A stretch of DNA of 64,000 nt from Bifidobacterium asteroides (GTDB lineage: Bacteria > Actinomycetota > Actinomycetes > Actinomycetales > Bifidobacteriaceae): NCBI RefSeq assembly GCF_003202755.1, contig NZ_QGLK01000001.1, forward strand, positions 310,001-374,000, read 5' to 3'. Positions 49,483-64,000 of this stretch are shown piece after piece. The notes beneath the pieces are model-generated. The model was not told where the DNA came from and ran no database searches. It worked only from the letters and a program-made list of their open reading frames with translations. The position numbers were made by a program, and so were the translations under genes. How positions within the stretch are numbered: the first letter of the stretch is position 1; every line of letters begins with the position of its first letter.

Positions 49483-50984
49483 GCAGCATGGTCAATGGCA
49501 AGAAGGCCGCGCAGTATCTGCGGACCAGCAAGGCTCCCTTCCTGACCAGGGTCAAAGAGTCCGAGCAGGACAAATTCGCCCAGCAGGCCGTGGCCAAGGC
49601 CCAGGATGCGCAGTGGGTCAAGCGGGAGGCCGCCCGTCAGGAACTGGGCAACTGGGAACAGTGGCGCGACCTTGGCGAGCAGATCCGCCAGCACGTCATC
49701 CGCTACCTGCCTGACTACCTGGAGGAGTTCGCTGACAACGTGGAGAAGCGCGGCGGCCATGTCTTCTTCGCTCAGACCGACGATGAGGCTGCCCAGTACA
49801 TCAAGCAGATTGCCATCGAAAAGAAGGCCAAGCACGTCGTCAAGAGCAAGTCCATGGTGACCAGCGAGATCAACCTGGATCCCACGCTGATGACTGTGCC
49901 CGGTCTGGAGGTGCTGGAGACCGACCTGGCCGAGTTCATCCTGGAGGAGGATGACTGGGATCAGCCCACGCATCTGGTCTTCCCCGCCCTGCACAAGAAC
50001 CGCGAGCAGGTTCGCCAGGTTTTCGAGAAGAAGCTGGGTTACAAGGGCGACAACGACCCCCAGCACATGGCCCGGTTCTCGCGCAAGGTTCTGCGCAAGC
50101 ACTTCCTCGAGGCGGACATGGGCATCACCGGCTGCAACTTCGCCGTGGCTGATACGGGCATGATCAACCTGGTGACCAACGAGGGCAACGCCGACCTGGC
50201 CATGTGCATCCCCAAGACCCAGGTGGTGGTCATGGGCATGGAGCGCCTGGTGCCGACCATGAAAGAGGCCGAGACCATGGACAACATGCTGGCCCGGTCC
50301 GCTGTCGGCCAGAAGCTGACCTCCTACCTGACCTACACTGCGCCGCGCACTGGTCAGGAGTCGGACGGACCGGACGATTTCTATGTGGTCATTCTGGACA
50401 ACGGGCGCTCAAACGCACTGGGAACGGTCTTCGAACCCATCCTCCAGTGCATCCGCTGCGCTTCCTGCCTGAACGTCTGCCCCATTTACCGGCACATCGG
50501 CGGTCACGGCTACGGGTCCATCTACCCCGGTCCGGTGGGCTCGGTGCTCTCGCCGGTGCTGGACGGCGGCTACGACGACTTCGGAGATCTGCCCTACGCC
50601 TGCAGCCTGTGTGCGGCATGCACAGCCACCTGTCCGGTCAAGATCCCCCTGCATCAGCTGATGATTGAACACAGGAGGATCATGATGGATGACCAGTCCA
50701 AGGCCAATCTGATCGATGACACGGTCATGAGGGTCGTAGGACTGGGAACCGGCCACTCCTCGCTCTTCCGCACTGCCTTGGGGGTGGATCACACCATGCT
50801 GACGCCCATATCCAAGAAGCAGCCGGAGACGGCCAAGAACCTCTTCGCCAGTGATCGGCATGTGGAATGGATGCCCTTCGTCTTCGGCGGATGGACCAAG
50901 GTGCGTGATCTGCCGGATCCGCCCAAGCACGGGGAGAACTTCCGCAGTTGGTTCGCTCATCACAAGAAGGAGCAGCAGGCATGA
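49479..50984 (+). CDS. lutB: L-lactate utilisation protein B (Fe-S electron transfer)
   Basis: A protein of 501 residues with an N-terminal LUD domain (KSMVTSEINLDP, TGCNFAVADTGMINLVTNEGN) and a C-terminal ferredoxin-like part with two cluster motifs, CIRCASCLNVCP and CSLCAACTATCP. It transfers electrons from lactate in complex with LutA and LutC; the physiological acceptor is not settled. The start overlaps the lutA stop, and the stop overlaps the lutC start, so the three genes are tightly coupled. Confidence 0.94.
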   Translation: MSSMVNGKKAAQYLRTSKAPFLTRVKESEQDKFAQQAVAKAQDAQWVKREAARQELGNWEQWRDLGEQIRQHVIRYLPDYLEEFADNVEKRGGHVFFAQTDDEAAQYIKQIAIEKKAKHVVKSKSMVTSEINLDPTLMTVPGLEVLETDLAEFILEEDDWDQPTHLVFPALHKNREQVRQVFEKKLGYKGDNDPQHMARFSRKVLRKHFLEADMGITGCNFAVADTGMINLVTNEGNADLAMCIPKTQVVVMGMERLVPTMKEAETMDNMLARSAVGQKLTSYLTYTAPRTGQESDGPDDFYVVILDNGRSNALGTVFEPILQCIRCASCLNVCPIYRHIGGHGYGSIYPGPVGSVLSPVLDGGYDDFGDLPYACSLCAACTATCPVKIPLHQLMIEHRRIMMDDQSKANLIDDTVMRVVGLGTGHSSLFRTALGVDHTMLTPISKKQPETAKNLFASDRHVEWMPFVFGGWTKVRDLPDPPKHGENFRSWFAHHKKEQQA

Positions 50985-51685
50985 CCGATCGTGAGGTATT
51001 CCTGGATTACCTGGCCAAGAAGAGCGGACGGCCCCGTCACCAGCTCAAGGACCACCCTCTGGTGCCGGTCAACGATTTGCCGGAGACAACCCTGTCGGGT
51101 CATACCCAGGATGAGCTGTTGGAGATCGCCCGGAAGAGCAGCGAGGCTGTCCATGTGGATTTCCGCACCTGCACCAAGGCCGGGCTGCCCACTGCCCTGA
51201 ATGAATTCATTGATTCACGCAAGGACGACAGTGACCATGTTATGCTGCCCACCTCCGACCTGTTCGCAGACTTTGGGCTGGAGGAGTGGAGGGACGGCCT
51301 GACCCCGCCCGCCACTTTCTGGAAGCCGGGGGCCAGCCGCGAGGAGAACATCAAGACCGCCGACGAGTCCGGAACGGCCATCGCCTTTGCGGACTTCCTC
51401 CTGGCCGAGTCGGGCACCATCACAGTGGCTACCACTCCTGGTCAGGGTCGCGCCTTCCACTTCCTGCCGGTTCACTATCTGAGCATCATTCGCAAGTCGA
51501 AGATTCTGCCCCGAACCCGGCAGGCCATGGACTACTATGACCCAGCCCTGGTCTCAGGCGAGCTCAAGACCTCCAACATCAACTTCATCACCGGTCCCTC
51601 CAACACGGGCGATATCGAGATGGTGATCGTGGTGGGCGTGCATGGTCCCCTGGATATGACATATCTGGTGGTTGAAGACATGTAG
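50981..51685 (+). CDS. lutC: L-lactate utilisation protein C
   Basis: A protein of 234 residues made of a LUD domain: the segment TAIAFADFLLAESGTITVAT and the C-terminal FITGPSNTGDIEM are diagnostic. The function is in the LutABC complex for L-lactate oxidation to pyruvate. The ATG at 50981 overlaps the lutB stop (ATGA); an upstream in-frame start at 50948 lies in lutB. It is followed by an exceptionally long terminator. Confidence 0.92.
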   Translation: MTDREVFLDYLAKKSGRPRHQLKDHPLVPVNDLPETTLSGHTQDELLEIARKSSEAVHVDFRTCTKAGLPTALNEFIDSRKDDSDHVMLPTSDLFADFGLEEWRDGLTPPATFWKPGASREENIKTADESGTAIAFADFLLAESGTITVATTPGQGRAFHFLPVHYLSIIRKSKILPRTRQAMDYYDPALVSGELKTSNINFITGPSNTGDIEMVIVVGVHGPLDMTYLVVEDM

Positions 51686-51720
51686 CTCGATAAAATTTCC
51701 TGCTTATGCAGGCGCATTTC

Positions 51721-51780
51721 CCGCAAGTGGGGAGTCAGTGGCTTGAAGAAAGATGCTGACTCCCCACTTGCGGTTTTTGT
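51721..51780 (+). terminator. Strong intrinsic terminator after lutC
   Basis: A perfect 18-bp stem, CCGCAAGTGGGGAGTCAG (51721-51738) with its complement at 51756-51773, a 17-nt loop and the tail TTTTTGTT. It ends the lut operon; the convergent rimM stop lies just beyond. Confidence 0.92.
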
Positions 51781-51792
51781 TAAAAGACGGAT

Positions 51793-52398
51793 TCAGCCCA
51801 GGCCAGGCAGAAGCCCCCCAGGTGGATCGATGGCCACATACCCGTTTTCAATGTCAACCTGGGGCACCAAGGCTTCGACGAAGGGTATCAGCCCCTCCGT
51901 TTCTTCATCGTTTTCTACGGTGGTCATGTGGATCTGCAGCTGCTGCTGGGCTACACCGTCCAGTACGTCGCTGACTTGGCCGATCACTCGTCCGGATGGT
52001 TCGCCTAGTGAGTTGTCCGGGGCCATGCGAACCTCGAGTCCGATCAGATCCTCGGGATACCAGGCATCCTCCTGCACCAGCTCCTCGACTGGATCAGCCT
52101 GGACATACAGTTCGATGCCGTTCAGCGCTTCGGAGGCGTTCCTGTCTTCCACTCCTTTGAAGAGGACTATCCAACGCTGTTTGAAGCGGCGTGAGGATAC
52201 TACAGTGAAAAACCGTCCGTCCTTGGTCTGCAACCTGGAGCCGGGGGCGAAGCGCCGCTCAGGCTCGTCGGTGTAGGCATAGACGTTGACCTCGCCCTTG
52301 AGTCCCTGGGCGCGGCCGATACGGCAGACCCTCAGCAACCTTCGCTGCTGAGGGTCTGGACCCTGCGGGTCGTGATTGGTGGACCGGCTGGGGCTCAC
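51793..52398 (-). CDS. rimM: Ribosome maturation factor RimM
   Basis: 16S rRNA processing factor acting on the 30S head. The protein of 201 residues has the N-terminal domain (RVCRIGRAQGLKGEVNVYAYTDEPERRF), then the PRC-barrel domain (DLIGLEVRM...GRVIGQVSDVLDGVAQQQLQI) ending near IPFVEALVPQVDIENGYVAIDPPGGL. The start is a GTG whose GTGA overlaps the khpA stop. The usual next gene, trmD, is not downstream; lutC (convergent) is there instead. Confidence 0.92.
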   Translation of the reverse strand: MSPSRSTNHDPQGPDPQQRRLLRVCRIGRAQGLKGEVNVYAYTDEPERRFAPGSRLQTKDGRFFTVVSSRRFKQRWIVLFKGVEDRNASEALNGIELYVQADPVEELVQEDAWYPEDLIGLEVRMAPDNSLGEPSGRVIGQVSDVLDGVAQQQLQIHMTTVENDEETEGLIPFVEALVPQVDIENGYVAIDPPGGLLPGLG

Positions 52399-52628
52399 CG
52401 GCGCACGTCCATGATGTCGACGCGCACCTTGTGGTCGGCCAGAGCCTGGATCACGGTGCGGATGGCGTTGGCGGTCCTGCCGCCCCTGCCGATCACGCGG
52501 CCAATGTCCTCGGGGTTGACCCGCACCCGCAGCAACTCTCCGCGAGAGTTCTCGTGGGACTTGACCGACACGTCATCGGGAAAGTCCACGATGTTCCTGA
52601 TCAGGTGCTCAACGGCCTGTGCAAGCAT
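52395..52628 (-). CDS. khpA: KH-domain RNA-binding protein KhpA
   Basis: A small RNA-binding protein of 77 residues with a single KH domain; the GxxG loop is seen as IGRGGRTANAIRT. It works with KhpB (Jag) on small RNAs and cell-division control in Gram-positives. The ATG at 52628 has GGAAGGA about nine bases upstream; an ATG 18 bases earlier overlaps that site and is rejected. It lies between rpsP and rimM, the classical order. Confidence 0.92.
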   Translation of the reverse strand: MLAQAVEHLIRNIVDFPDDVSVKSHENSRGELLRVRVNPEDIGRVIGRGGRTANAIRTVIQALADHKVRVDIMDVRR

Positions 52629-52663
52629 GATAGCCGGTCCTTCCAATCTTTAGTGAGTGTGCC

Positions 52664-53122
52664 TTACTCAGCTGCCTGCTCGGCCTGGGCGGCGTCTGCC
52701 GACTCATCGGCCTTGGGGGCTTCCTTCTCTGCCTGAGCCTTGGCCTTGGCATCAACCTCGGACTTGGCGGCCTTGAGCTTCTGAGCTTCGTTCTGTGCCT
52801 GCTCAATGCGGGCCTGGGCATCGACCTCGGCCTGCGGCACCTTAAGGGTGCCTTCCTTGCCGGGCAGATCCTTGAACTTCTGCCAGTCGCCGGTGATCTT
52901 CAGGAGGTTGAAGACAGGATCGCTGGGCTGAGCGCCCACACCCAGCCAGTACTGGGCGCGCTCGGAGTCGATCTTGATTGAAGAGGGCTGGGTGTTGGGA
53001 TCGTAGGTGCCGATCTCCTCAATGACCTTGCCATCGCGCTTCTTGCGGGAATCGACCACGACCACGCGGTAGAAGGGATAGAACTTCTTACCCATTCTCT
53101 TCAGACGAATTCTGGTTGCCAA
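52664..53122 (-). CDS. rpsP: 30S ribosomal protein S16 with long charged C-terminal tail
   Basis: A small-subunit ribosomal protein. The family start [21 protein letters not shown] follows a TTG at 53122, which has AAGGAG six bases upstream; there is no suitable ATG before the conserved sequence. The core (about 85 residues) is followed by a tail of about 65 residues rich in Ala, Lys, Glu and Gln, likely helical and charged, as seen in other bifidobacterial S16. A -10-like TATACT occurs at 53246-53251 on the minus strand. It heads the rpsP-khpA-rimM operon. Confidence 0.94.
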
Positions 53123-53312
53123 AACGGCTCTCCTTGGTACTTGGTGTGCCCGGCGGCGTCTCCATGTGGGGCATGGTGGCGCTCCTGGCGTGTTCCTCAC
53201 GGCCGTCGGAATGAGAGGGCTCCTCCGGACATGAATAACGAAAAAAGTATACCTCAACCGGAGGATAGCGCGAGAGACAAGTTATCTATCTGCATGTCTA
53301 GTCCGCAGCTCT

Positions 53313-54059
53313 TCAAAACCTGCTTCCGCGAGCCTTTTGGACAGTAAAATCGAAGTTATACCTGTCGCCGCGGTACAAACTGACAGCATACTCGATGTGT
53401 CGATCCATACTGTCTTTAACAATTCTGGTCACTCGTAGGGTAGGGGAGTGTGGGGCTGTGCCGAGAAGCTCTGATTGTCGACGGCTGAGGGTGCTCACGT
53501 CTATGATCTGCCGGGCCGCAGTCAAAGATAAATGGTACTTGGATTCCAATAGCTCATAAAGGGATCCCTCAAGATTTTGCTTAAGTAGATCTGGGGTCAA
53601 CGTTTGGGGAATCCAGACGTCCTCGATACACATGGGTTGATTATCTGCGGTACGTAGTCTCCGAAGATGGATGACTGGAGCTCCAGGCGAAAGCGACAGT
53701 TTAAAAGCCAGGGAAGAACTGGCTTCCTGAACTTCTGTAATGAGTACTTTGCAACCAGGCGTGAGACCACGTGCAGCCATGTCGTCACTAAAGGATGTCA
53801 ACTCAATCGATTTGGTGATTCTGGGCTCAGCAACATACGTACCTGAACCCTGCTTGCGGTATATGGCACCTTCAAGTTCCAATTGGTTGAGTGCATTGCG
53901 AACCGTTGCTCGGTTAATGCCATATTTTGCAGCCAAAGATCTTTCTGTCGGAAGCTTGGCGTGTGCAGGAAGCGAGTGCTTTATCAGAGAATCGAGGTAA
54001 TCGCGCAGGGCTTGAGCCTTGCCGCGGCCTTCTGCTGATGTAAGGTCTTCATTGGTCAT
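53313..54059 (-). CDS. GntR/HutC-family regulator (HTH plus UTRA)
   Basis: A transcription factor of 248 residues. The N-terminal winged helix reads LPTERSLAAKYGINRATVRNALNQLELEGAIYRKQGSGTYVAEP, followed by a UTRA effector domain (residues 85-240) that in this family binds sugar phosphates or amino-sugar phosphates (for example NagR binds GlcNAc-6-phosphate). GGGGGA precedes the ATG. It is divergent from the ABC importer and NanE, and the spacer contains four copies of a palindrome that fits GntR operators, so it is very likely the local repressor. Confidence 0.9.
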   Translation of the reverse strand: MTNEDLTSAEGRGKAQALRDYLDSLIKHSLPAHAKLPTERSLAAKYGINRATVRNALNQLELEGAIYRKQGSGTYVAEPRITKSIELTSFSDDMAARGLTPGCKVLITEVQEASSSLAFKLSLSPGAPVIHLRRLRTADNQPMCIEDVWIPQTLTPDLLKQNLEGSLYELLESKYHLSLTAARQIIDVSTLSRRQSELLGTAPHSPTLRVTRIVKDSMDRHIEYAVSLYRGDRYNFDFTVQKARGSRF

Positions 54060-54119
54060 GATGCGTCCCCCTAGATGTGAAGCCGTTCCCTTCTTTCGGT
54101 CGAATCCCTCTTGTTCCTA

Positions 54120-54204
54120 ATAGGAATATACCATTGCGGCCAAAATGGTATGAAAGATGCTGAGTGAGTCTGTTCAAGTAAGGATCTTATTGGTATATAC
54201 CGTT
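54120..54204. promoter_or_regulatory. GntR operator-like sites O1 and O2 near the regulator gene
   Basis: Two 16-bp sites related to ATTGGTATATACCAAT: ATAGGAATATACCATT at 54120-54135 (13 of 16) and ATTGGTATATACCGTT at 54189-54204 (14 of 16, core GGTATATACC perfect). They lie 61 bp and about 130 bp from the GntR start, suited to autoregulation. Confidence 0.72.
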
Positions 54205-54370
54205 GCAATAAGCATATTCAAAGGTTAATTTCAGCCTCTCCTGTTAAGTCACAGTAATAAGTTATTTTTGATATATCTAATCTAAGGTCCTGATTTTACA
54301 AGTCAGATCAAATGTGATTCTTGTATATAAAGTTCAGGAGACGCACCGTTGGATTTGAAAAAACCACTTT

Positions 54371-54411
54371 ATTGGTATATACCAATAATAACAATATTGG
54401 CTTATACCAGT
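54371..54411. promoter_or_regulatory. GntR operator-like sites O3 and O4 before the ABC importer
   Basis: A perfect palindrome ATTGGTATATACCAAT at 54371-54386 and a relative ATTGGCTTATACCAGT at 54396-54411 (13 of 16). They start 25 bp apart and end 45 bp before the binding-protein start, so they would cover its promoter or leader. Confidence 0.75.
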
Positions 54412-54456
54412 ATTGGTAATGTCCCAATGGGGGGAGTGCTAAAAAAGGAGAACGTC

Positions 54457-55481
54457 ATGAGAACAAGGAAGTTGCTCACGGCAATGACCGTATTCGCCCT
54501 GATGCTGGCAGGTGGATGCGGGTCGTCGAGCAGTGGGAAGTCAGATCCCGCATCGGCTGGTGGGAAACTGGTGGTCTATACTCCAAACAGCAAGGAAATT
54601 GTCGCAGAGATTGTTCCGGCTTTTGAAAAGAAAACCGGCGTCAAGGTGGAGGTACTGGAGGCCGGAGCAGGAGAGATTCTGACAAGAGTCAAGGCTGAAG
54701 CCAACAGCCCATCCGCGGACGTGCTGCTTGGTGCGGTACGCGATCAGTTCGATAAGTATTTCGAAAAATATGTTTCTCCCAACGACAAGTATTTGCAGAA
54801 GGCCTCCAGGAACGTCACTGGTTTGGCAACCGCATATATATCTAACGGAAGTGTGCTCCTTGTCAACGATAAGTTGGAAGGGTCACACAAGATACAGTCT
54901 TATGAGGACCTGCTTCGACCTGAGTTGAGAGGGAAGATCGCTGCAGGTGATCCGGCCACGTCAAGTTCTGCATTTGCCCAACTGACTAATCAATTAAAAG
55001 CTATGGGCGGTAACTATACATCTCGCAAGGGGTGGGATTATGTAGGTAGCTTAATAAAAAACCTTGATGGAAAGGTTGCATCCAGTTCGTCTGCGGTGGC
55101 ACGTGGGGTAGCAGATGGCGAGTATACGGTTGGAGTCACCTACGAGGAGCCTGCAGCCAATTACGTGAAAGATGGTGCTTCTGTTCATATTGTCTACCCT
55201 CGAGAAGGGGCGGTGTTCCTGGATTCTTATGTCGGTATTGTCAAGAAGGCGCCCCATCGCAAACTGGCAGAGAAATTCGTGGATTTTGTCATCAGCAAGG
55301 ATGTGCAGATCGTTTTGGCACCAAGTTAACCAACCGACCTTTGCGAAGTGATGCTTCGTTGGGGAAGGCGCTTGCTCCTATGAGCAGTATCAAATCCATC
55401 AAGGAGGATGGTGCCTATGTTGAGGCACACCGTGATGACATCGTGAGGCAGTATACCGATCTGTTCGCCAGCCTGCAGTAG
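54457..55481 (+). pseudogene. AfuA/FbpA-type substrate-binding lipoprotein, disrupted by a one-base frameshift
   Basis: The gene starts at ATG 54457 behind AAAAAAGGAG and encodes a lipoprotein (signal ending LAGGC) of the Fe3+/sugar-phosphate binding family (LVVYTPNSKEIVAEIVPAFEKKTG...). In the given frame it stops at 55329 after 290 residues. Shifting frame after base 55308 restores VQDRFGTKLTNRPLR and a conserved ending, IVRQYTDLFASLQ, that stops at 55481 just before the ATPase gene. One G is missing (CAG-GAT has become CAGAT). No adjacent Tyr pair of iron-binding members is visible, so a sugar phosphate as in AfuA is more likely than iron. The shift may be a true mutation or a sequencing error. 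Confidence 0.82.
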
Positions 55482-55497
55482 GGGATGGAGTACTATT

Positions 55498-56634
55498 ATG
55501 GCAACATCAATTGAGCTTTCTCACATTCGCAAGTCCTATGGCGATACCCTTGTTATCCCTGACCTAGATCTGCAAGTCAAAGAAGGTGAGTTCTTTACTC
55601 TTCTCGGTCCATCAGGATGTGGCAAGACGACACTGCTTCGTATGATTGCGGGTTTCAACCAGATCACATCAGGAACAATTGCTTTCGACGGAACTGTCAT
55701 TAATGATCTTGTGCCGGCGAAACGCAATATCGGTATGGTTTTTCAGAATTATGCCGTTTTCCCCAACATGACCGTCAGAGGCAATATTCTTTTTGGGTTG
55801 AAAAATCGTGGACTTAGCAAGGAGGAAATGCGCCAGAAAACTGACAGGGTCATGGATGTCGTTCAGATCCGGCAGTGGGAAAATCGTTATCCCAAGGACC
55901 TCAGCGGAGGGCAACAACAGCGGGTCGCACTGGCGCGTGCCATTGTTATTCAGCCGAGACTCTTGCTGATGGACGAGCCCTTGTCGAATTTGGATGCAAA
56001 ACTGCGTGTCGAGATGCGCAATGTCGTCAGGCACGTGCAACAAGCTGTTGGTATTACAACGGTTTACGTTACCCACGACCAGGAGGAAGCTATGGCTGTC
56101 TCCGATCGTTTGGCCGTTATGCATGCGGGTGTGATCGAGCAGGTGGATACTCCACGCCAGGTATACCTGCACCCGGCAACTAAGTTTGTTGCAGGATTCA
56201 TTGGTAGGACCAACTTTTTCCAAGCTACCGTGACCAAAGAATCCGGAGTCGTTTCCCTGGCCTTCGACCACGACCTGAGCCGTCTAGAGTTGCGCCCGGA
56301 ATTATCACAAGCGTTACTGCATCAGAAGGTTCAGCATGTCATTATGGCTGCCCGTCCGAATGAAATATCGTTCGTCAAGGCTGACCATGGAACTGCTGCC
56401 GAGGTGGTGGGCAGCACTTTTCTAGGTGAAAGCGTGCATTATCAACTGGTGCTAACTTCTGGTGAGCACATTGAAGTATCTAAGAATTCAGTAAATGCAC
56501 CTCAGCTTGTCCCGGGAGAGCAAGTTGGCCTGTCATTCAATATGGACGACATCAATATATTCGATACCGAAAGCGGGCGGAACGTGTTGATAAATGATGC
56601 AGCCAAGCGGGAGATGGAGGCGAGTCAGGTATGA
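55498..56634 (+). CDS. ABC transporter ATP-binding protein (AfuC/FbpC/PotA-like)
   Basis: An ATPase of 378 residues with Walker A GPSGCGKTT, Q-loop VFQNYAVFPNMTV, signature LSGGQQQR, Walker B LLLMDEPLSNLD and switch THDQEEA, followed by a TOBE-like C-terminal domain (residues 285-360). This form is typical of importers for iron, polyamines, phosphonates and hexose phosphates. GGGATGGAG precedes the ATG. The stop overlaps the permease start as ATGA. Confidence 0.9.
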   Translation: MATSIELSHIRKSYGDTLVIPDLDLQVKEGEFFTLLGPSGCGKTTLLRMIAGFNQITSGTIAFDGTVINDLVPAKRNIGMVFQNYAVFPNMTVRGNILFGLKNRGLSKEEMRQKTDRVMDVVQIRQWENRYPKDLSGGQQQRVALARAIVIQPRLLLMDEPLSNLDAKLRVEMRNVVRHVQQAVGITTVYVTHDQEEAMAVSDRLAVMHAGVIEQVDTPRQVYLHPATKFVAGFIGRTNFFQATVTKESGVVSLAFDHDLSRLELRPELSQALLHQKVQHVIMAARPNEISFVKADHGTAAEVVGSTFLGESVHYQLVLTSGEHIEVSKNSVNAPQLVPGEQVGLSFNMDDINIFDTESGRNVLINDAAKREMEASQV

Positions 56635-58283
56635 AGCGTCGAATTCGTCTTGACGGCTGGACCACTGTAGCCTTGGCTGTCTTCGTTTTTTATACTGTCG
56701 CTCTGCTTATTCCTCTCGGTGGTTTGTTACTGAGCGCTTTTAAAGATTCGAATAGCGGCTCCTTCACTACCAAGTATTTTGCTCGTTTCTTCGGTAAAAG
56801 CTTCTATTTGGAAACTATTTGGAACAGTCTGGCCGTAAGCGTATCGGTGACTTTGCTTTCAGTGCTCATTGCCACCCCTCTGGCCTATATCGTGGCTACC
56901 ATCAGCATCAAGGGAACGAGTGTCGTTCGTTCATTGATGTTGGTGTCTTCCATGTCAGCCCCGTTCATTGGCGCATATTCTTGGATCCTCCTGCTAGGCA
57001 ACAATGGCACGATAACAGGTTTTCTTCGCAGAATGGGCATCAGGGTTCCCAGCATATATGGATTCCCAGGCATTGTATTGGTGCTTACTTTACAGTTGTC
57101 TCCCATGGTATTCATGTACGTTCTGGGTGCCATGAAAAATGTCGATTCATCCTTGCTCGATGCGGCAGAGAGCCTGGGATATCAGGGCGTTCAGAAAGTG
57201 CTGAAAGTAGTCGCTCCCCTGATCATGCCCACGGTACTAGCTGGCGGTCTGATGGCTTTTATGCGTGCGCTTGCAGATTTTGGTACGCCAATGCTAATTG
57301 GTCAGGGGTATCGTACTGTACCAGTCCTGATATATACCGAGTTCATCAGTGAAATGGGCGGCGATACCGGGTTTGCTGCCGCAGTGAGCATCGTCATTGT
57401 TGCACTGGCAGTCATTGTTTTCTTCGCGCAGAGATATGTTTCTAACCGCATGTCTTACGAAATGAATGCCTTGCATCCAATCGTTCCTGCAAAAGCTAGA
57501 ACGGCACTTGGACGAGTGATGGCTCATGTTGCGGTTTATCTGTTTACAGCTTTCACAATGATTCCGCAGCTCTATGTGGCATACACATCATTTAAAAACA
57601 CCAGTGGTCGAGTATTTACTCGAGGCTTTTCCCTTAATAGTTATCGACAGACCTTAGATGAAGCTGGAAGTGCAATCAAAAATACTATGCTGTTTTCACT
57701 GATTGCAGTGAGCATCATCGTCGTCATCGCAGTTCTTTCGGCTTATGTGATGGTACGCCGCAGAAGTGGTTTGACCGGTTGGCTAGACGTGATCTTAATG
57801 TTGCCCTTCATTGTGCCAGGTTCTGTCATGGGTATCGCACTCTTGACGTTTTTCAATCATGGCCCCATCGTGATTGCCGGTACTTCTATTATTATCGTGC
57901 TGGCCTTTGTCATCAGACGATTGCCATACACTGTACGTTCTGCTGAAGCTACCTTGCGCAATACCAGTGTCAGTGTGGAGGAAGCAGCCATTAGTTTAGG
58001 AGCGTCGCCAGCTCGTACATTTGTACGAATAACCGTACCCATGATTCTATCGGGAATCATTTCGGGTGCCATACTCAGCTGGATCAGTATTATCACTGAA
58101 CTCAGTGCCACCGTGCTTTTGTATACCACTAAAACACGCACGATGTCAATTGCAATTTATTCGGAAGTGCTGAGTGGAAACTATGGTGTCGCTGCTGCGC
58201 TATCAACGATGCTGACAGTTTTAACAGTCTTCCTGCTTTTCCTGTTCTACAAGATTTCAGGTAGCAGGGATATCAATATCTGA
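56631..58283 (+). CDS. Two-domain ABC permease (AfuB/FbpB-like)
   Basis: A membrane permease of 550 residues made of two fused permease halves, each with about six hydrophobic segments. Two EAA loops are seen, DAAESLGYQGVQKVLKVVAP near residue 178 and EEAAISLGASPARTFVRITVP near residue 450. This fused form is typical of the FbpB/AfuB/SfuB group. The ATG overlaps the ATPase stop. With the ATPase it forms the membrane part of the importer whose binding protein is frameshifted here. Confidence 0.9.
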   Translation: MKRRIRLDGWTTVALAVFVFYTVALLIPLGGLLLSAFKDSNSGSFTTKYFARFFGKSFYLETIWNSLAVSVSVTLLSVLIATPLAYIVATISIKGTSVVRSLMLVSSMSAPFIGAYSWILLLGNNGTITGFLRRMGIRVPSIYGFPGIVLVLTLQLSPMVFMYVLGAMKNVDSSLLDAAESLGYQGVQKVLKVVAPLIMPTVLAGGLMAFMRALADFGTPMLIGQGYRTVPVLIYTEFISEMGGDTGFAAAVSIVIVALAVIVFFAQRYVSNRMSYEMNALHPIVPAKARTALGRVMAHVAVYLFTAFTMIPQLYVAYTSFKNTSGRVFTRGFSLNSYRQTLDEAGSAIKNTMLFSLIAVSIIVVIAVLSAYVMVRRRSGLTGWLDVILMLPFIVPGSVMGIALLTFFNHGPIVIAGTSIIIVLAFVIRRLPYTVRSAEATLRNTSVSVEEAAISLGASPARTFVRITVPMILSGIISGAILSWISIITELSATVLLYTTKTRTMSIAIYSEVLSGNYGVAAALSTMLTVLTVFLLFLFYKISGSRDINI

Positions 58284-58344
58284 AGCTGACTGTTTATGGA
58301 TAAATGAATGGTTCGGCGGGGTTTTGGAAAGAAGGTGATTCGTC

Positions 58345-59055
58345 ATGGATTGTTCCGTTATCAATTCTTTGCAATCAAATTTGATTGTTTCCTGCCAGTC
58401 CTATCCGGGTGAGCCTATGCGGGATTCACGAACCATGGCGCAAATAGCTGCAGCTGTTGTCAAAGGTGGGGCATCAGCGGTACGTCTACAAGGTATCAAA
58501 GACATTCAACTTGGTCGGTCCTTAGTTGGAGTACCGATCATAGGCTTAGTCAAAGTTGGCGATGAAGGAGTATATATAACGCCGACACTGGCTGATGCTC
58601 TACGTGTAGTCGAAGCCGGTGCAGACATAGTAGCCTTGGATGGAACTGACAGGCCACGACCTGATGGCTTGACACTTAAAGAGACGGTGAAAGGAATACG
58701 AGCTCATTCAAAGGCTTTGATTATGGCTGATTGCGGTTGTTTGGCTGATGCCGTCTGGTCCCAAGAGGCAGGCGTCGATTTGGTTGGAACTACCTTAAGT
58801 GGGTATACGCCTGCCAGAGTCATGAGCCACGGACCGGATTATGCGCTTATCGATGAGTTGGTGGAGACTATTTCCCTACCAGTTGTAGCAGAGGGGCGTA
58901 TTCATACACCCGACCAGGCTTATGAAGCATTAAAACACGGAGCCTTTGCCGTTTGTGTAGGTACGGCTATCACGCATCCCACTACGATAACTTCTTGGTT
59001 TGTCGCAGGTCTCCACCGTTCAGCACAGTCCGTGGAATCTTCGGTAGTCCAGTAA
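58345..59055 (+). CDS. nanE: N-acetylmannosamine-6-phosphate 2-epimerase
   Basis: TIM-barrel enzyme of 236 residues that converts ManNAc-6-phosphate to GlcNAc-6-phosphate. Family motifs are SCQSYPGEPM near the start, AVRLQGIKDI, IIGLVKV with the catalytic Lys, YITPTLADA, ALDGTDRPRP, MADCGC, GTTLSGYT and VVAEGRIHTP. AAAGAAGGTG precedes the ATG. It is the last gene of the AT-rich island and the only catabolic enzyme in it, so it gives the best clue to the transported substrate. Neither nanA nor nanK is present nearby, consistent with import of an already phosphorylated sugar. Confidence 0.93.
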   Translation: MDCSVINSLQSNLIVSCQSYPGEPMRDSRTMAQIAAAVVKGGASAVRLQGIKDIQLGRSLVGVPIIGLVKVGDEGVYITPTLADALRVVEAGADIVALDGTDRPRPDGLTLKETVKGIRAHSKALIMADCGCLADAVWSQEAGVDLVGTTLSGYTPARVMSHGPDYALIDELVETISLPVVAEGRIHTPDQAYEALKHGAFAVCVGTAITHPTTITSWFVAGLHRSAQSVESSVVQ

Positions 59056-59134
59056 GAATCTAAGTCATGCTTGTTGATACCGTATAGCTCACAGGCCTTC
59101 TTACAGTGTTAAGCAGCAGATGGCCTGCGCTCCA

Positions 59135-59169
59135 ACTGAGTATGCTGGATACGCCCAAGCATACTCAGT
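59135..59169. terminator. Hairpin between nanE and the convergent EEP gene
   Basis: A perfect 12-bp stem, ACTGAGTATGCT (59135-59146) and AGCATACTCAGT (59158-59169) with an 11-nt loop. It lies between convergent genes and has no long T-run, so it probably works as a bidirectional terminator. Confidence 0.65.
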
Positions 59170-59191
59170 GATAAAGAGCATTAACATCGGT

Positions 59192-60334
59192 TCATATGCA
59201 TAGTTCGGTCAATAAGCCATAGTGATCGGAGTCTGGAACTCCAGTTGTCTTCATTGATTTGACTCTGATACCCTGGCTGACCAGAATATGGTCAATTTCA
59301 ATCAGCGGCGGTAGAAGTGCTCGGCAATGCGGAAAGGTTGGATGCGGGCCGCAGCCCAAAGACAGCGAGGTATCCCGCAACCTGCCGGACTCCAGCATGG
59401 CACGAAAGGTTGGATGGTGCAGGTTGGCGTTGCAGTCACCCATGATGATGGTGAATGCAGGGGATTCCATGTCTGGGAGGGCCTCCATATTTTCGCTGCT
59501 TAGCTGAGCCAAGCGTTCAATGCCCAGGCCCCATTGCTTGGCACCGCGCTGGGGCGACCTGGGGTGGACCGAAGCCACTCGGATTGTTCCAGCTTGGGTA
59601 CGCAAAAGCATAAGAGGGACAGCTGATGCTTCCAAATCAAGGACTGCCGGTTGAGACCAAATGGGCTCCTGCCGAGAGAAGAGCGCGTTCCTGCCGCCAT
59701 TGTCATTCTTGGTCTGAGGGCCTTCCACGAGGTACGGCAGGGTCCGCCTCATCCCTGCTTTCTGCAGATGAGTCAGTAGAGTTGAGTTCACCTCCTGCAG
59801 GGCTAAAACGTCAACATTCTGGCTTTGAACCTGCTCCAGGATGGACGGTGCATCCGCTTTGCCATAGCGGCAGTTTAGCGTCATGACTCTCAAAGAAAGA
59901 GCTGGGTGGCTAGTGGCTGGAGCCAGGTCGTGAGGCTTTGTGTGGACCCGCGCTGAGTCATGCATGTCCTGATTGAACTGCTGTGATTCGGGACTGTCTG
60001 CATCCGTATCTGATTGATTACTAGTATCAGTGCGGTGTCTATTGTTTGACTGTAGCCCATCTCTGTGCCCAGAGCTCATAGGAGAGGGCAGGTGAAACCT
60101 GTATTGAAGTCTCCACAACGTGACCAGAGTCAACTCGATTAGGGCCAGGGCGGACTGTGGCCAGGCTTGAATCACAATTGCGCAGACCAAGATGGCCAGC
60201 AGAGGAGCGGCCAGCAAGTCAATCAGGGCGATCAGCTCTACCAGGGGTCGGTGCCAGTCAGCTCCGGCAGGCAGGAAGCGCAGGGCCATCCATAAGGCGA
60301 TAAGGCCCAGGAGAATCCAGAGAAGGGTGTTCAC
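59192..60334 (-). CDS. Endonuclease/exonuclease/phosphatase-family membrane protein
   Basis: A protein of 380 residues. Two or three N-terminal hydrophobic segments (residues 3-75) are followed by a polar linker (residues 85-145) and an EEP domain with VMTLNCRYGKAD, VDVLALQEVNST (catalytic Glu), IRVASVHP, IIMGDCNAN (GDxN motif) and IDHILVS, ending with SDHYGL. The domain faces outside or inside depending on topology; members act on nucleic acids or phospholipids. The start is a GTG at 60334 with AGGAG about 11 nt upstream. It is adjacent to ffh (30 bp). Confidence 0.87.
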   Translation of the reverse strand: MNTLLWILLGLIALWMALRFLPAGADWHRPLVELIALIDLLAAPLLAILVCAIVIQAWPQSALALIELTLVTLWRLQYRFHLPSPMSSGHRDGLQSNNRHRTDTSNQSDTDADSPESQQFNQDMHDSARVHTKPHDLAPATSHPALSLRVMTLNCRYGKADAPSILEQVQSQNVDVLALQEVNSTLLTHLQKAGMRRTLPYLVEGPQTKNDNGGRNALFSRQEPIWSQPAVLDLEASAVPLMLLRTQAGTIRVASVHPRSPQRGAKQWGLGIERLAQLSSENMEALPDMESPAFTIIMGDCNANLHHPTFRAMLESGRLRDTSLSLGCGPHPTFPHCRALLPPLIEIDHILVSQGIRVKSMKTTGVPDSDHYGLLTELCI

Positions 60335-60364
60335 GTGTCATCGTCTCCTGCGGGAGGGAGGCGT

Positions 60365-61981
60365 TTAGCGGCCGCCGAAGAGACCGCCCAGTCCACCGCC
60401 AAGGTTGGGAGGCAGGTCCGGCAGGCCCTCGGGCATCTGCGGAGTTTCGGAGCGCTTGGCGAAGGCGGAGCCGCCGGAGGATTTGCCCTTGCCAGACAGA
60501 CGCTCACGTAATGCCTTCTCTTCGGCCTCTCGCTTCATGGGATTGCCTGAACGGGAACCCTTGCGGCTTTTCTTTCCCTTTTTGCCCTTCTTGCCGCCGC
60601 CAGCGCCCATACCACCCATACCGGGGACCGTGCGGCTGCCATTGGTCATCCGCTTCATCATCTTGGCTGCTTGCTCGAAACGCTGCAGCAGGCCGTTGAC
60701 GGCCGAGACCGTAGTGCCGGCGCCATAGGCGATTCGGGCCCGTCGTGAGCCGTCGATGATGCTCGGGTCACGACGTTCCTGGGGAGTCATCGACTGGATG
60801 ATGGCTTGGGTCCGGTCCACCTCTTTTTCGTCGAACTGCTCCAGTTCTTTGCGGTGCTGGGCCATACCTGGGATCATCCCCAGAATGCTCTTGAAGGAAC
60901 CCAGCTTGCGGACCTGCTGGAGCTGCTCCAGAAAGTCATCAAGGCCGAAGCTGCCCTCGGACATCTTCCCGGCGGCCTTGCGGGCTTCCTCCTCGTCGAA
61001 CTGGCGTTGGGCCTGCTCGATCAGGGTCAGGATGTCGCCCATATCCAGAATGCGGGAGGCCATACGATCGGGGTGGAAGACCTCGAAGTCCTTGAGGCCC
61101 TCGCCGTTGGAATCGAAAAGGATGGGCTTGCCGGTCACCGAGGCAACCGACAGGGCCGCGCCGCCGCGAGCATCGCCGTCCAGCTTGGACAGCACCACGC
61201 CGGTGAAGTCAACACCTTGATCGAAGGCCTTGGCTGTGGCGACCGCGTCCTGGCCGATCATGGCATCAATGACGAAGAGGATCTCGTCGGGATGGACGGC
61301 GTCGCGGATATTGCGTGCCTGCTCCATCAGCTCCTGATCCACGCCCAGTCGACCGGCCGTATCAATAATGACCACGTCGTAGAGCTTGTCCTTGGCTACC
61401 CTGATCGAGTCGGCTGCCACCTTGACCGGGTCGCCCGTGACCTGTCCGGGGGCCGCCAGCTCGGATCCGCTGGTCTGCACGCCTGGTTCGGGTGCGTATA
61501 CCGGTACTTCGGCGCGCTCGCCGACCACCTGGAGCTGGGTGACCGCATTGGGCCGCTGCAGGTCAGCCGCCACAAGCAGGGGTGTGTGACCGGCATCCTT
61601 GAGCCAGTAGCCCAGCTTGCCGGCCAGTGTGGTCTTGCCTGCACCCTGCAAACCGGCCAGCATGATGACTGTGGGCGGGTTCTTGGCGAAATTGAGCGGC
61701 CGGTCCACTCCCGCGCCCAGGATGCTGGTCAGTTCGTCATAGACGATGGAGACCACCTGTTGGGCCGGATTCAGAGCCTTGGAGACCTCCTCGCCCAGAG
61801 CGCGTTCACGAATGCGTCCGGTAAAGGAGCGCACCACGTCCAGGGAGACATCAGCATCCAGCAGGGCGCGGCGGATCTCACGGATTGTGCCGTCGATGTC
61901 GGCCTCGGTCAGCTTCCCCTTGGAGCGCAGATGGGTGAAGGCCTGGGATAGCCGATCAGTCAAAGATGAAAATGCTGCCAT
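60365..61981 (-). CDS. ffh: Signal recognition particle protein Ffh
   Basis: GTPase that delivers nascent membrane proteins to FtsY. The protein of 538 residues has the N domain, the G domain with GLQGAGKTT, DTAGRLGVDQ, SKLDGDARGG and the M domain (GSFGLDDFLEQLQQVRKLG... SRRARIAYGAG). The C-terminus is extended by a Gly/Lys-rich stretch and a Met/Gly-rich tail (PMKREAEEKAL...GGGLGGLFGGR), as in other Actinobacteria. The ribosome-binding site is weak. In many bacteria rpsP follows ffh closely; here a 5.9-kb AT-rich island and the EEP gene lie between. Confidence 0.96.
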   Translation of the reverse strand: MAAFSSLTDRLSQAFTHLRSKGKLTEADIDGTIREIRRALLDADVSLDVVRSFTGRIRERALGEEVSKALNPAQQVVSIVYDELTSILGAGVDRPLNFAKNPPTVIMLAGLQGAGKTTLAGKLGYWLKDAGHTPLLVAADLQRPNAVTQLQVVGERAEVPVYAPEPGVQTSGSELAAPGQVTGDPVKVAADSIRVAKDKLYDVVIIDTAGRLGVDQELMEQARNIRDAVHPDEILFVIDAMIGQDAVATAKAFDQGVDFTGVVLSKLDGDARGGAALSVASVTGKPILFDSNGEGLKDFEVFHPDRMASRILDMGDILTLIEQAQRQFDEEEARKAAGKMSEGSFGLDDFLEQLQQVRKLGSFKSILGMIPGMAQHRKELEQFDEKEVDRTQAIIQSMTPQERRDPSIIDGSRRARIAYGAGTTVSAVNGLLQRFEQAAKMMKRMTNGSRTVPGMGGMGAGGGKKGKKGKKSRKGSRSGNPMKREAEEKALRERLSGKGKSSGGSAFAKRSETPQMPEGLPDLPPNLGGGLGGLFGGR

Positions 61982-62165
61982 AATGCCCCAAGTCTACCTG
62001 TCAGCCGGGAGATTGGTCGGCGGTTACTGGGAATAAGGCCACCTGCTCCAGACATTTGCTTCTGCTTGTCGCTGTCTATCGGCTACCTATTTCCGTTACA
62101 ACTCTCTTAAGAGCAGAAAATGAACGTTCTTGAACTTACAGAATCTGTTGAGCATATCGTACTTA

Positions 62166-62213
62166 TTGACACAAACCCAGTTAAGACGTTATACTAAATC
62201 GAAACGATTCGAT
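62166..62213 (+). promoter_or_regulatory. Strong sigma-70 promoter with LacI-type operator
   Basis: A perfect TTGACA (62166-62171), an 18-bp spacer and TATACT (62190-62195), followed three bases later by ATCGAAACGATTCGAT (62198-62213), with perfect 6-bp arms and a CG-containing centre as in LacI/GalR operators. An operator right behind the -10 suits repression. It reads toward the DUF2961/GH172 gene. Confidence 0.75.
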
Positions 62214-62246
62214 ATTGTCCTTGTACACCCTGAGGAGTGCTATCCC

Positions 62247-62950
62247 ATGATGCATGCCCCTCAAAAATTTGTTGGCATCTTGAATCGTAGTCGATGAATG
62301 CGAGGGAGCAGGGAGCCGGCATGAAAGCCAGAAAAAGGCCCAGAATGGCCTTGAGTTTGACCGGATTGTTCCGGAAGGAGCTCGGCCATGTGGACTTTAG
62401 AAGGTGCCGGGTTCTCTACTACGGACTTCAGATCCTACCTGGAGATGTTGTCATCAGCGTAAGCCTGCGATATCAAGTCGAATGCGGCACGGTTACTGGC
62501 ATCTTGAGCAAAATCGAACCGATGAATCTAGTCCGGAACTGCACACGGCGGAGGTTCCGTGTCATCATTCCCTCTACCATCATTTTTGAAATACGTACAG
62601 TTCCCCTCACATCATCGAGCGAGTCTGTAATGACCCTCATCCTGATTTATCTGCCGACAAACAACTGGACAATTACTTTGGTGCGGTTCCCCCTGTCCAT
62701 TTCTACAAATCGTTCATTTGGGTGCAGCGTGTGGTGTGCAGTACTGCTGGAACGACCCCCTTGACTTCTGTGTTGCTATGGCACTCAGCTGTTTTCCGCG
62801 GTATATGGGACCTCCCACCCAGATTGCCGTGGAATCGACCATTGATGCTGGTGCCTTGGTAGACTGTCGACGCTTTCTCCTTTGTATTTCCGCCATAGCT
62901 CTCGGAGGGAATAGTGGAGGGCGCTGTCAAGTAACTAATGAGCTACAAGT
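62247..62950 (+). pseudogene. Decayed or non-coding stretch between a strong promoter and the GH172 gene
   Basis: About 700 bp with no convincing gene despite good expression signals. GAGGAG is placed nine bases before ATG 62247, but that frame stops after 16 codons (MMHAPQKFVGILNRSR). A second start (ATG 62321, with GGGAG upstream) and a third (ATG 62388 with GGAAGGAG, 24 codons) give no recognisable protein. In one frame near 62635-62680 the segment SADKQLDNYFGAVPPV faintly recalls the end of sugar-binding proteins. I read this as remnants of one or more genes lost by frameshifts; plain non-coding DNA is the alternative. Confidence 0.35.
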
Positions 62951-63025
62951 ACACTGAACATGGCCATCCGCTACAAAATCAGGGGAGAAGAGCAGAAGGC
63001 CCGAATACGAAAGGCAACCACAATC

Positions 63026-64000
63026 ATGGGTATGAGCATGCCGAATATCACAAACGGTCTGGAGGCGCTGACTCGCACAACCACGGACCGAACTCGCTGT
63101 GTCAATGCTGAGAACCCTCAGGGGGGCAAGGGCAGGGCGGCTATGACGGCCAGTAAGCTGGGTACCTCCAGGAAAGGGACTCCTTGTCTCAAAAACATTC
63201 CCTCGGGACAGGACGTCGTTCTTGCTGACTTGTCAGGGGCGGGGGAAATTCGTCATATCTGGATGACTGTGACTGACGCCACCTCGCCCACCGGACCCAA
63301 CGTACTGCGCAATCTGATCCTTGAATGCTACTGGGATGGCGAACAGACACCGTCTGTTTGCGTGCCCCTTGGTGACTTCTTCTGCTGTGGCCATGCCCAG
63401 GCCTGTCGGGTGGAATCCGTTCCCGTGGCCGTTTACCCGCGCCGGGGATTCAACTGCTACTGGCCCATGCCCTTCCACAACGGGGCCCGGATCGTCCTGC
63501 GCAACCGGCACAACGAGCCCATCGAGGCTTTCTTCTATCAGATCGACTATGTGGAAAAGGATGGGCTGCCCGAGGATGTCATGACCTTCCATGCCCAGTG
63601 GCGCCGTCAGCGAGTCACCGAATTGGGCCAGGATTACGTCATTCTGGACGGAGTGCATGGTCGGGGCTCCTATGTGGGCACCTATCTGGCACTAACCGCT
63701 CTGGAGAGCCGCTGGTGGGGCGAGGGCGAGGTGAAGGTCTACCTGGACGGGGACAAGGACTATCCCACCTGGTGCTCCACAGGTAGCGAGGACTACTTCG
63801 GCGGTGCCTGGAGCTTTGCCGGGCAGGACCCGGATGGCCGAATGCACGAAACCACCTATAGCGGGGCCTACATGGGCTTTCCCTTCCATTCAAGGCAGCT
63901 GGACAACCGCGAGTCCCAGTATTGGGATGCCGACACCCCGGTGACCCGGGGGTTCTACCGCTGGCACATCCCCGACCCCATCATTTTTGCCAGCGACATC
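63026..64000 (+). CDS. DUF2961 (GH172-family) protein, 3' truncated by the window end
   Basis: 325 codons are open to the window edge. The DUF2961 fold is recognisable from RTRCVNAENPQGGKG, IRHIWMTVTD, LRNLILECYWDGE, VPLGDFFCCGH, YWPMPFHNGARI and STGSEDYFGG. The family contains difructose-anhydride and alpha-fructofuranoside/arabinofuranoside-acting enzymes (GH172), described in bifidobacteria. The start is uncertain: ATG 63026 has AAGG about 12 nt upstream; ATGs at 62960, 63032 and 63038 are alternatives. A LacI-type promoter lies 830 bp upstream, indicating sugar-controlled expression. The C-terminal part is not visible. Confidence 0.85.
   Translation, partial: MGMSMPNITNGLEALTRTTTDRTRCVNAENPQGGKGRAAMTASKLGTSRKGTPCLKNIPSGQDVVLADLSGAGEIRHIWMTVTDATSPTGPNVLRNLILECYWDGEQTPSVCVPLGDFFCCGHAQACRVESVPVAVYPRRGFNCYWPMPFHNGARIVLRNRHNEPIEAFFYQIDYVEKDGLPEDVMTFHAQWRRQRVTELGQDYVILDGVHGRGSYVGTYLALTALESRWWGEGEVKVYLDGDKDYPTWCSTGSEDYFGGAWSFAGQDPDGRMHETTYSGAYMGFPFHSRQLDNRESQYWDADTPVTRGFYRWHIPDPIIFASDI

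Follow-up and report, generated by a model that had tools for sequence, protein, structure and literature searches.

Few ATP-binding cassette (ABC) importers handle phosphorylated sugars, and annotation often assigns them to iron or phosphonate transport. One close described system is AfuABC of Actinobacillus pleuropneumoniae, a hexose/heptose-phosphate ABC importer whose solute-binding protein (SBP), AfuA, has glucose-6-phosphate (G6P), fructose-6-phosphate (F6P), and sedoheptulose-7-phosphate (S7P) as ligands according to PMC4546632; the words "nanE" and "ManNAc" are absent from the text of that paper. Another is the HptA-HptS-HptR system of Staphylococcus aureus for sensing of G6P, in which HptA is described, in PMC8774646, as a sensor partner leading to UhpT activation rather than as part of an ABC importer. 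N-acetylmannosamine-6-phosphate (ManNAc-6-P) 2-epimerase (NanE) is also encoded in loci that combine it with a ROK kinase and a sugar ABC importer that is CUT1-like (judged by eye) or of the oligopeptide type (L013 annotation), in three Bifidobacterium genomes (G011, G016, and G022) and on two Arthrobacter plasmids (L012 and L013). Here we describe a locus of Bifidobacterium asteroides in which a GntR/UTRA regulator, an importer of the sugar-phosphate type, and NanE occur together with no local kinase; it lies in a stretch of 64,000 nucleotides of contig NZ_QGLK01000001.1 (hereafter, the window).

The gene order was confirmed across 53313-59055, with gntR on the minus strand divergent from the genes for the SBP, ATPase, fused permease, and NanE, and every part of the island proposed in the initial annotation was located from open reading frames (ORFs) and Pfam matches:

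53313..54059, minus strand: GntR/HutC-family regulator with a UTRA domain (Pfam UTRA, E=7.8e-42); nearest solved relatives DasR and NagR
54457..55329, plus strand: solute-binding lipoprotein of the HptA/AfuA type, first 290 residues, with a frame that stops early (ORF, Pfam, sequence and fold matches)
55332..55481, plus strand: C-terminal piece (49 residues) of the SBP gene in a different frame, still relative-like (similarity search)
55498..56634, plus strand: ABC importer ATPase with a TOBE domain (Pfam ABC_tran, E=1.9e-36)
56631..58283, plus strand: ABC importer permease, two BPD_transp_1 transmembrane modules fused in one chain (Pfam BPD_transp_1, E=5.9e-22)
58345..59055, plus strand: NanE (Pfam, NCBIfam, active site)

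The permease gene overlaps the end of the ATPase gene, and nanE begins 61 bases past the permease. Computation shows what the genes encode, the fold class, the residues of the active site, the operator-like sites, the borders of the island, the repeated pairing with NanE, and the local absence of a kinase.

With moderate confidence, we propose that this cassette imports an extracellular, pre-phosphorylated amino sugar, most likely ManNAc-6-P, which feeds NanE without a kinase step. The lipid-anchored SBP would capture ManNAc-6-P, the fused permease and ATPase would import it, and NanE would convert it to N-acetylglucosamine-6-phosphate (GlcNAc-6-P), which chromosomal NagA and NagB would take to F6P, a kinase being unneeded; the GntR/UTRA protein would repress the operon at TTGGTATATACCAA operators, until one of the pathway's amino-sugar phosphates lifts that repression. 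We infer the identity of the ligand, the direction of flux, repression by the regulator, and the regulator's effector. The cargo is probably ManNAc-6-P, and a related N-acylated or 2-epimeric hexosamine phosphate ranks next. If this is correct, cells could skip the kinase step, and the NanE-linked branch would be the first ABC system known to be dedicated to the import of an N-acetylated amino-sugar phosphate. Amino-sugar phosphates would then be worth scavenging, perhaps, speculatively, from lysed cells or phosphate-linked ManNAc polymers.

The window NanE scores above the curated cut-offs of both PF04131 (191.4 bits against 27; E=1.2e-56) and NF002231 (276.2 against 189), and it keeps all of the catalytic residues Q11, R40, K63, D124, and E180 (S. 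aureus numbering, as named in PMC8482478). The substrate-contacting R208 is replaced by His; the S. aureus R208A variant retains 3.7% of kcat, as stated in PMC8482478. We considered this replacement as a sign of a different NanE substrate and dropped it, because the same His is common to five other actinobacterial NanE proteins (L006, L007, L012, L013, and L014), which are encoded beside ROK kinases. A divergent NanE of G016 (38% identity to the window NanE; L017:6985-7692), encoded in a GntR-NanE-CUT1-ROK locus, has Ala at the R208 position. The predicted link to amino sugars is supported by the NanE active site, the NagR/DasR-like regulator, and the presence of nagA and nagB, which are adjacent to each other elsewhere in the genome.

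The SBP (Pfam SBP_bac_11, E=9.5e-29) has as its closest solved proteins, by sequence and fold, AfuA, VcA0625, HptA, and P5PA, which form the hexose-phosphate branch; AfuA is the best fold match, and HptA is the closest characterised protein in a pairwise sequence search. On these matches the SBP is assigned to the AfuA/HptA-type sugar-phosphate binders among the "iron" binding proteins. The initial description of the importer as "AfuABC-like" was therefore right as to class, although its nearest relatives have an HptA-type SBP with a single fused permease. The AfuA phosphate ligand T150 is kept in kind as Ser171 (residues per PMC4546632), and every one of the 89 alignment rows has Ser or Thr at the equivalent site.

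Automatic annotation would make the system a ferric iron (FbpA-type) or 2-aminoethylphosphonate (PhnS-type) importer, since these share the fold superfamily and the top NCBIfam names are phnS2 for the SBP and PhnT2 for the ATPase. In FbpA, an adjacent tyrosine pair (Y195/Y196 in Haemophilus influenzae) serves as iron ligands. The corresponding position in the window SBP is E231-P232, and no relative has a tyrosine at either column (0/88), whereby a ferric iron importer was set aside, and the prediction of a sugar-phosphate rather than an iron transporter held up. The PhnSTU 2-aminoethylphosphonate importer was also set aside, with all three NCBIfam equivalog cut-offs missed (phnS2 110.6 bits against 392.75, PhnT2 369.4 against 457.7, PhnU2 182.7 against 593.25); the phnS2 score is that of the 290-residue SBP piece, and the intact SBP of L022 scores 125.2. 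NanE is not known to have a role in import of either cargo, and such a function is very improbable here.

Searching the 64-kb window with two ROK queries and a single NanA query turned up neither a ROK (NanK-like) gene nor a NanA-like one, as the initial annotation had remarked; genome-wide ROK and NanA matches all fall outside it.

The prediction that NanE would accompany the transporter in other genomes was upheld in a separate lineage, comprising [Clostridium] asparagiforme (L038) and the spirochaete Breznakiella homolactica (L039). In both, NanE lies directly upstream of the transporter in divergent orientation, and next to it comes an RpiR-type regulator (assigned by Pfam in L038; the L039 regulator is 54% identical to it), while the kinase and response-regulator families are missing. 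By simple arithmetic, the chance of finding a single-copy gene in a 17-kb locus of these contigs (6.4 and 4.6 Mb) is well under 1%. The RpiR-type NanR of Streptococcus pneumoniae binds ManNAc-6-P (PMC12713135), which fits the RpiR regulators of these two loci. An 80-row permease tree joins the window to Paenibacillus (SH-aLRT 92) and puts L038 and L039 in a different group (98). Uniting all three in one clade, a grouping fixed by the NanE neighbour before tree building, was rejected (p-AU 0.0047), with the caveat that the window branch is long. The window NanE shares 57-60% identity with its counterparts in two genus members and on two Arthrobacter plasmids (57% with G011 and G022; 60% with Arthrobacter), 48% with that of Nonomuraea, and 38% with that of G016, versus 38-40% with those of L038/L039; on these identities, the pairing looks to have been assembled separately in the two lineages.

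Two SBP positions follow this pairing. Ala at position 71 occurs in 3/3 NanE-linked SBPs versus 2/86 others (another two of these 86 have a gap at that position), and Asn at position 130 in 3/3 versus 0/86. The two SBPs with Ala71 that lack a NanE link are the distant L019 and L075; in the latter, from a metagenome-assembled genome of Eubacteriales (L075:3091-12128), the HptA-type importer lies beside BtpA-family, SIS, glucosamine-isomerase-family, and two GntR-like genes. As a tentative generalisation, these loci may represent an undescribed class of kinase-free amino-sugar-phosphate importers that arose at least twice from hexose-phosphate importers, with an HptSR-type two-component system exchanged for an internal amino-sugar-phosphate regulator (GntR/UTRA or RpiR), NanE recruited from different sources, and the same pocket changes (Ser/Thr to Ala71, and to Asn130) tuning the SBP to an N-acetylated, C2-axial sugar phosphate. 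The re-annotation rule that we offer for such loci is NanE plus an HptA-type importer, no ROK gene, and Ala71/Asn130.

The regulator also points to amino sugars. Among solved proteins it matches DasR (132.7 bits) and NagR (125.6 bits), both amino-sugar repressors. At NagR effector-pocket positions 89, 90, 133, 135, 145, 165, 166, 167, and 228 it has F, S, R, R, E, S, L, Y, and Y; seven of these nine tabulated residues are identical and two are conservative (pocket as given in PMC4333415), and the pocket residues S88, I209, R211, and E222 lie outside the tabulated set. Operator-like sites precede the SBP gene:

54122..54133, no strand assigned: weak operator-like palindrome, 2 mismatches to TGGTATATACCA
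54190..54203, no strand assigned: operator-like palindrome TTGGTATATACCGT
54372..54385, no strand assigned: perfect operator-like palindrome TTGGTATATACCAA
54398..54409, no strand assigned: weak operator-like palindrome, 2 mismatches

The 12-base core TGGTATATACCA, with at most one mismatch, has two sites in 64 kb, both before the SBP gene, against 0.00 expected in shuffles. These sites are of the same TGGT-N-ACCA type as the NagR palindrome GTGGTCTAGACCAC, and sites of this type with 1-2 mismatches precede importer genes in the three other NanE loci of the genus, each of which has a GntR-like regulator (that of G016 is 45% identical to the window regulator). A search for a wider GntR regulon gave one further genome site at two mismatches or fewer, no more than a reversed-pattern control; near nagA/nagB there is one 12-mer with one mismatch, close to the end of L104. 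The window GntR/UTRA protein thus looks like a local regulator.

Several observations weigh against a ManNAc-6-P importer. TM-scores do not separate the binding-protein classes (0.71-0.74 for AfuA, with citrate-binding MctA and one FbpA likewise reaching 0.74). The essential AfuA sugar ligands H205, D206, and E229 correspond to E231, P232, and L255, all three different, so that the ligand of AfuA is not transferable and no ligand is readable from the pocket; the comparison with AfuA and FbpA suggested initially thus revealed no iron tyrosines and also no conserved AfuA sugar contacts, and on these residues the window SBP is not a plain AfuA. The AfuA phosphate ligand S37 is lost (Ala71); the corresponding Ala variant of AfuA has a ~40-fold loss of affinity, with binding not abolished (PMC4546632). 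The Ala71 and Asn130 columns were picked after the alignment had been viewed, and their Fisher values (8.8e-5 and 8.8e-6) are uncorrected for phylogeny and not to be leaned on; two independent tree comparisons gave a sign test with median p 0.5 and no power. The RxR motif and Glu of the regulator's pocket may be general to UTRA domains. To our knowledge, extracellular ManNAc-6-P is not commonly reported as a nutrient, and a literature search of titles and abstract openings found no report of its import or of its binding.

The family at large presents a further difficulty. Among the loci of relatives (the best 80 of at least 346 confirmed relatives from a genome scan; 56/80 longer than 16 kb), NanE (tblastn E <= 1e-10) occurs in only 2/80, L038 and L039, and it is absent from three related plasmid-record loci (0/3; L009-L011). 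Instead, a histidine kinase family occurs in 65/80, a response-regulator-like family in 56/80, and a HAD hydrolase in 22/80 (one kinase and one HAD member were checked with Pfam; response regulators were named by eye). This favours the main rival explanation, whereby the cargo is another organophosphate (G6P, F6P, or the like), as in AfuA, and NanE serves a separate internal pool of ManNAc-6-P; the closest characterised proteins bind G6P, F6P, and S7P, as noted above. We nevertheless judge it unlikely, given that two lineages or more have NanE next to the transporter, that GntR/UTRA or RpiR replaces the two-component system there (the window island has none, unlike HptA-HptS-HptR), and that the AfuA sugar ligands are not conserved. 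In various Clostridia and Selenomonadaceae the transporter is accompanied by the HAD (Hydrolase_3) family (e.g., L098:6571-7380), which may dephosphorylate the imported sugar phosphate.

A remote kinase might act instead, in view of seven ROK matches elsewhere in the genome, two of which are adjacent pieces of an apparent single gene beside nagB. The cargo might then be an unphosphorylated amino sugar or sialic acid, with a remote ROK kinase and lyase supplying NanE with ManNAc-6-P, much as the other NanE loci of the genus use ordinary sugar importers plus a ROK kinase. This is improbable, since the nearest characterised SBPs bind phosphorylated ligands and the T150 phosphate site is universally Ser or Thr. 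No lyase in the genome exceeds the curated NanA cut-off, which is strict and is missed by 13/14 control genomes too, so that absence of a lyase is not shown. A ROK gene occurs in 0/3 loci with importer and NanE (DNA examined) versus 6/6 NanE loci without the importer (three from the genus, L017, L020, and L021, and the three best hits among 408 plasmid records, L012, L013, and L014), although the contrast (Fisher p 0.012) comes from a small sample of non-independent loci and is uncorrected for kinship.

The state of the SBP gene bears on activity in this strain. Its start is likely ATG 54457 rather than the listed TTG 54349, which sits upstream of operator-like palindromes; Cys21, the putative lipid site, is invariant in 31/31 alignment rows. 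The frame stops at 55329, shorter than in relatives. The piece at 55332-55481 gave 58 matches at E <= 1e-3 among 90 other sequences (AfuA and HptA included), the best being Paenibacillus forsythiae (58% identity over 48 residues), whose 4.6-kb contig carries no NanE, and the two other frames across it gave none in the same search. Given that this piece still closely resembles a relative, that the four remaining genes are open, and that the comparison set has one genome per species, the break is either recent or a sequence error. Because of the break, the importer may be inactive in this genome unless the break is an error, which is a further point against its operation here. That the cassette is a recently disabled acquisition, unused in this strain, is a real possibility that we hold at somewhat less than even; the broken frame, low GC content, and rare occurrence speak for it, the retained C-terminal piece and four open genes against it. 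It is compatible with the other readings, and concerns activity in this strain rather than the system.

The cassette is acquired. Its borders, drawn against the three genomes nearest in a flanking gene (83-84% protein identity), and its neighbours are as follows:

53267..59188, no strand assigned: accessory island (DNA identity break to three relatives, and GC content)
52664-53257, minus strand: rpsP-like gene (named by eye), left flank of the island
59192-60334, minus strand: endonuclease/exonuclease-like gene (named by eye), right flank of the island

Flank DNA is 94.8-95.3% identical to these three genomes over ~1,267 bases; identity stops at 53266, just past rpsP, and restarts at 59189-59249. 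GC content of the island coding sequences is 0.47-0.51, versus 0.58 for the window. The junction (53266/59189) is a swap site, at which the nearest genomes (L140, L141, and L142) hold another sugar cassette, with a GH31-like alpha-glucosidase (MalA is its best NCBIfam match, scoring below the cut-off), an MFS-like protein (no NCBIfam match at 1e-20), and a LacI-like regulator, the last two named by eye. In 20/26 other genus genomes, rpsP and that same flanking gene are less than 1.5 kb apart. No tRNA was found in window positions 50000-64000, and a promoter/terminator scan gave chance level only.

The transporter looks to be of Bacillota origin; the top relative among the matches listed is from Paenibacillus (56%). 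Conservation across bifidobacteria, which the initial annotation had raised, was not borne out, with a close SBP match in 1/27 genus genomes, 1/189 family genomes at 1e-30, and 1/396 phylum genomes at 1e-40. Among 396 order genomes there are three matches at 1e-30, the other two at 34% and in 4-kb loci that lack NanE; both the order genomes and the phylum genomes are samples of larger groups. SBP and permease searches of viral contigs found no relatives. Gene content varies among related loci. In Granulicatella seriolae (L049:5529-16241), genes for a DHDPS-family lyase, a ROK kinase, an RpiR-like regulator, and an SBP of the sugar type come directly after the importer and a two-component system; in Caloramator sp. 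mosi_1 (L077:9071-13218) the permease matches lie in separate pieces with a ~1.5 kb gap inside; and on a Haliovirga abyssi plasmid (L010:1-14750) an HptA-like SBP with kinase and regulator accompanies a second SBP-permease-ATPase set, with nagA and nagB nearby. Three other genus genomes encode distant SBPs at 25-28% identity (L003, L004, and L005:1546-2499 of G026). That of G026 is closest to VcA0625, AfuA, and P5PA, and by sequence similarity other members of the genus may import G6P or pyridoxal phosphate via such SBPs.

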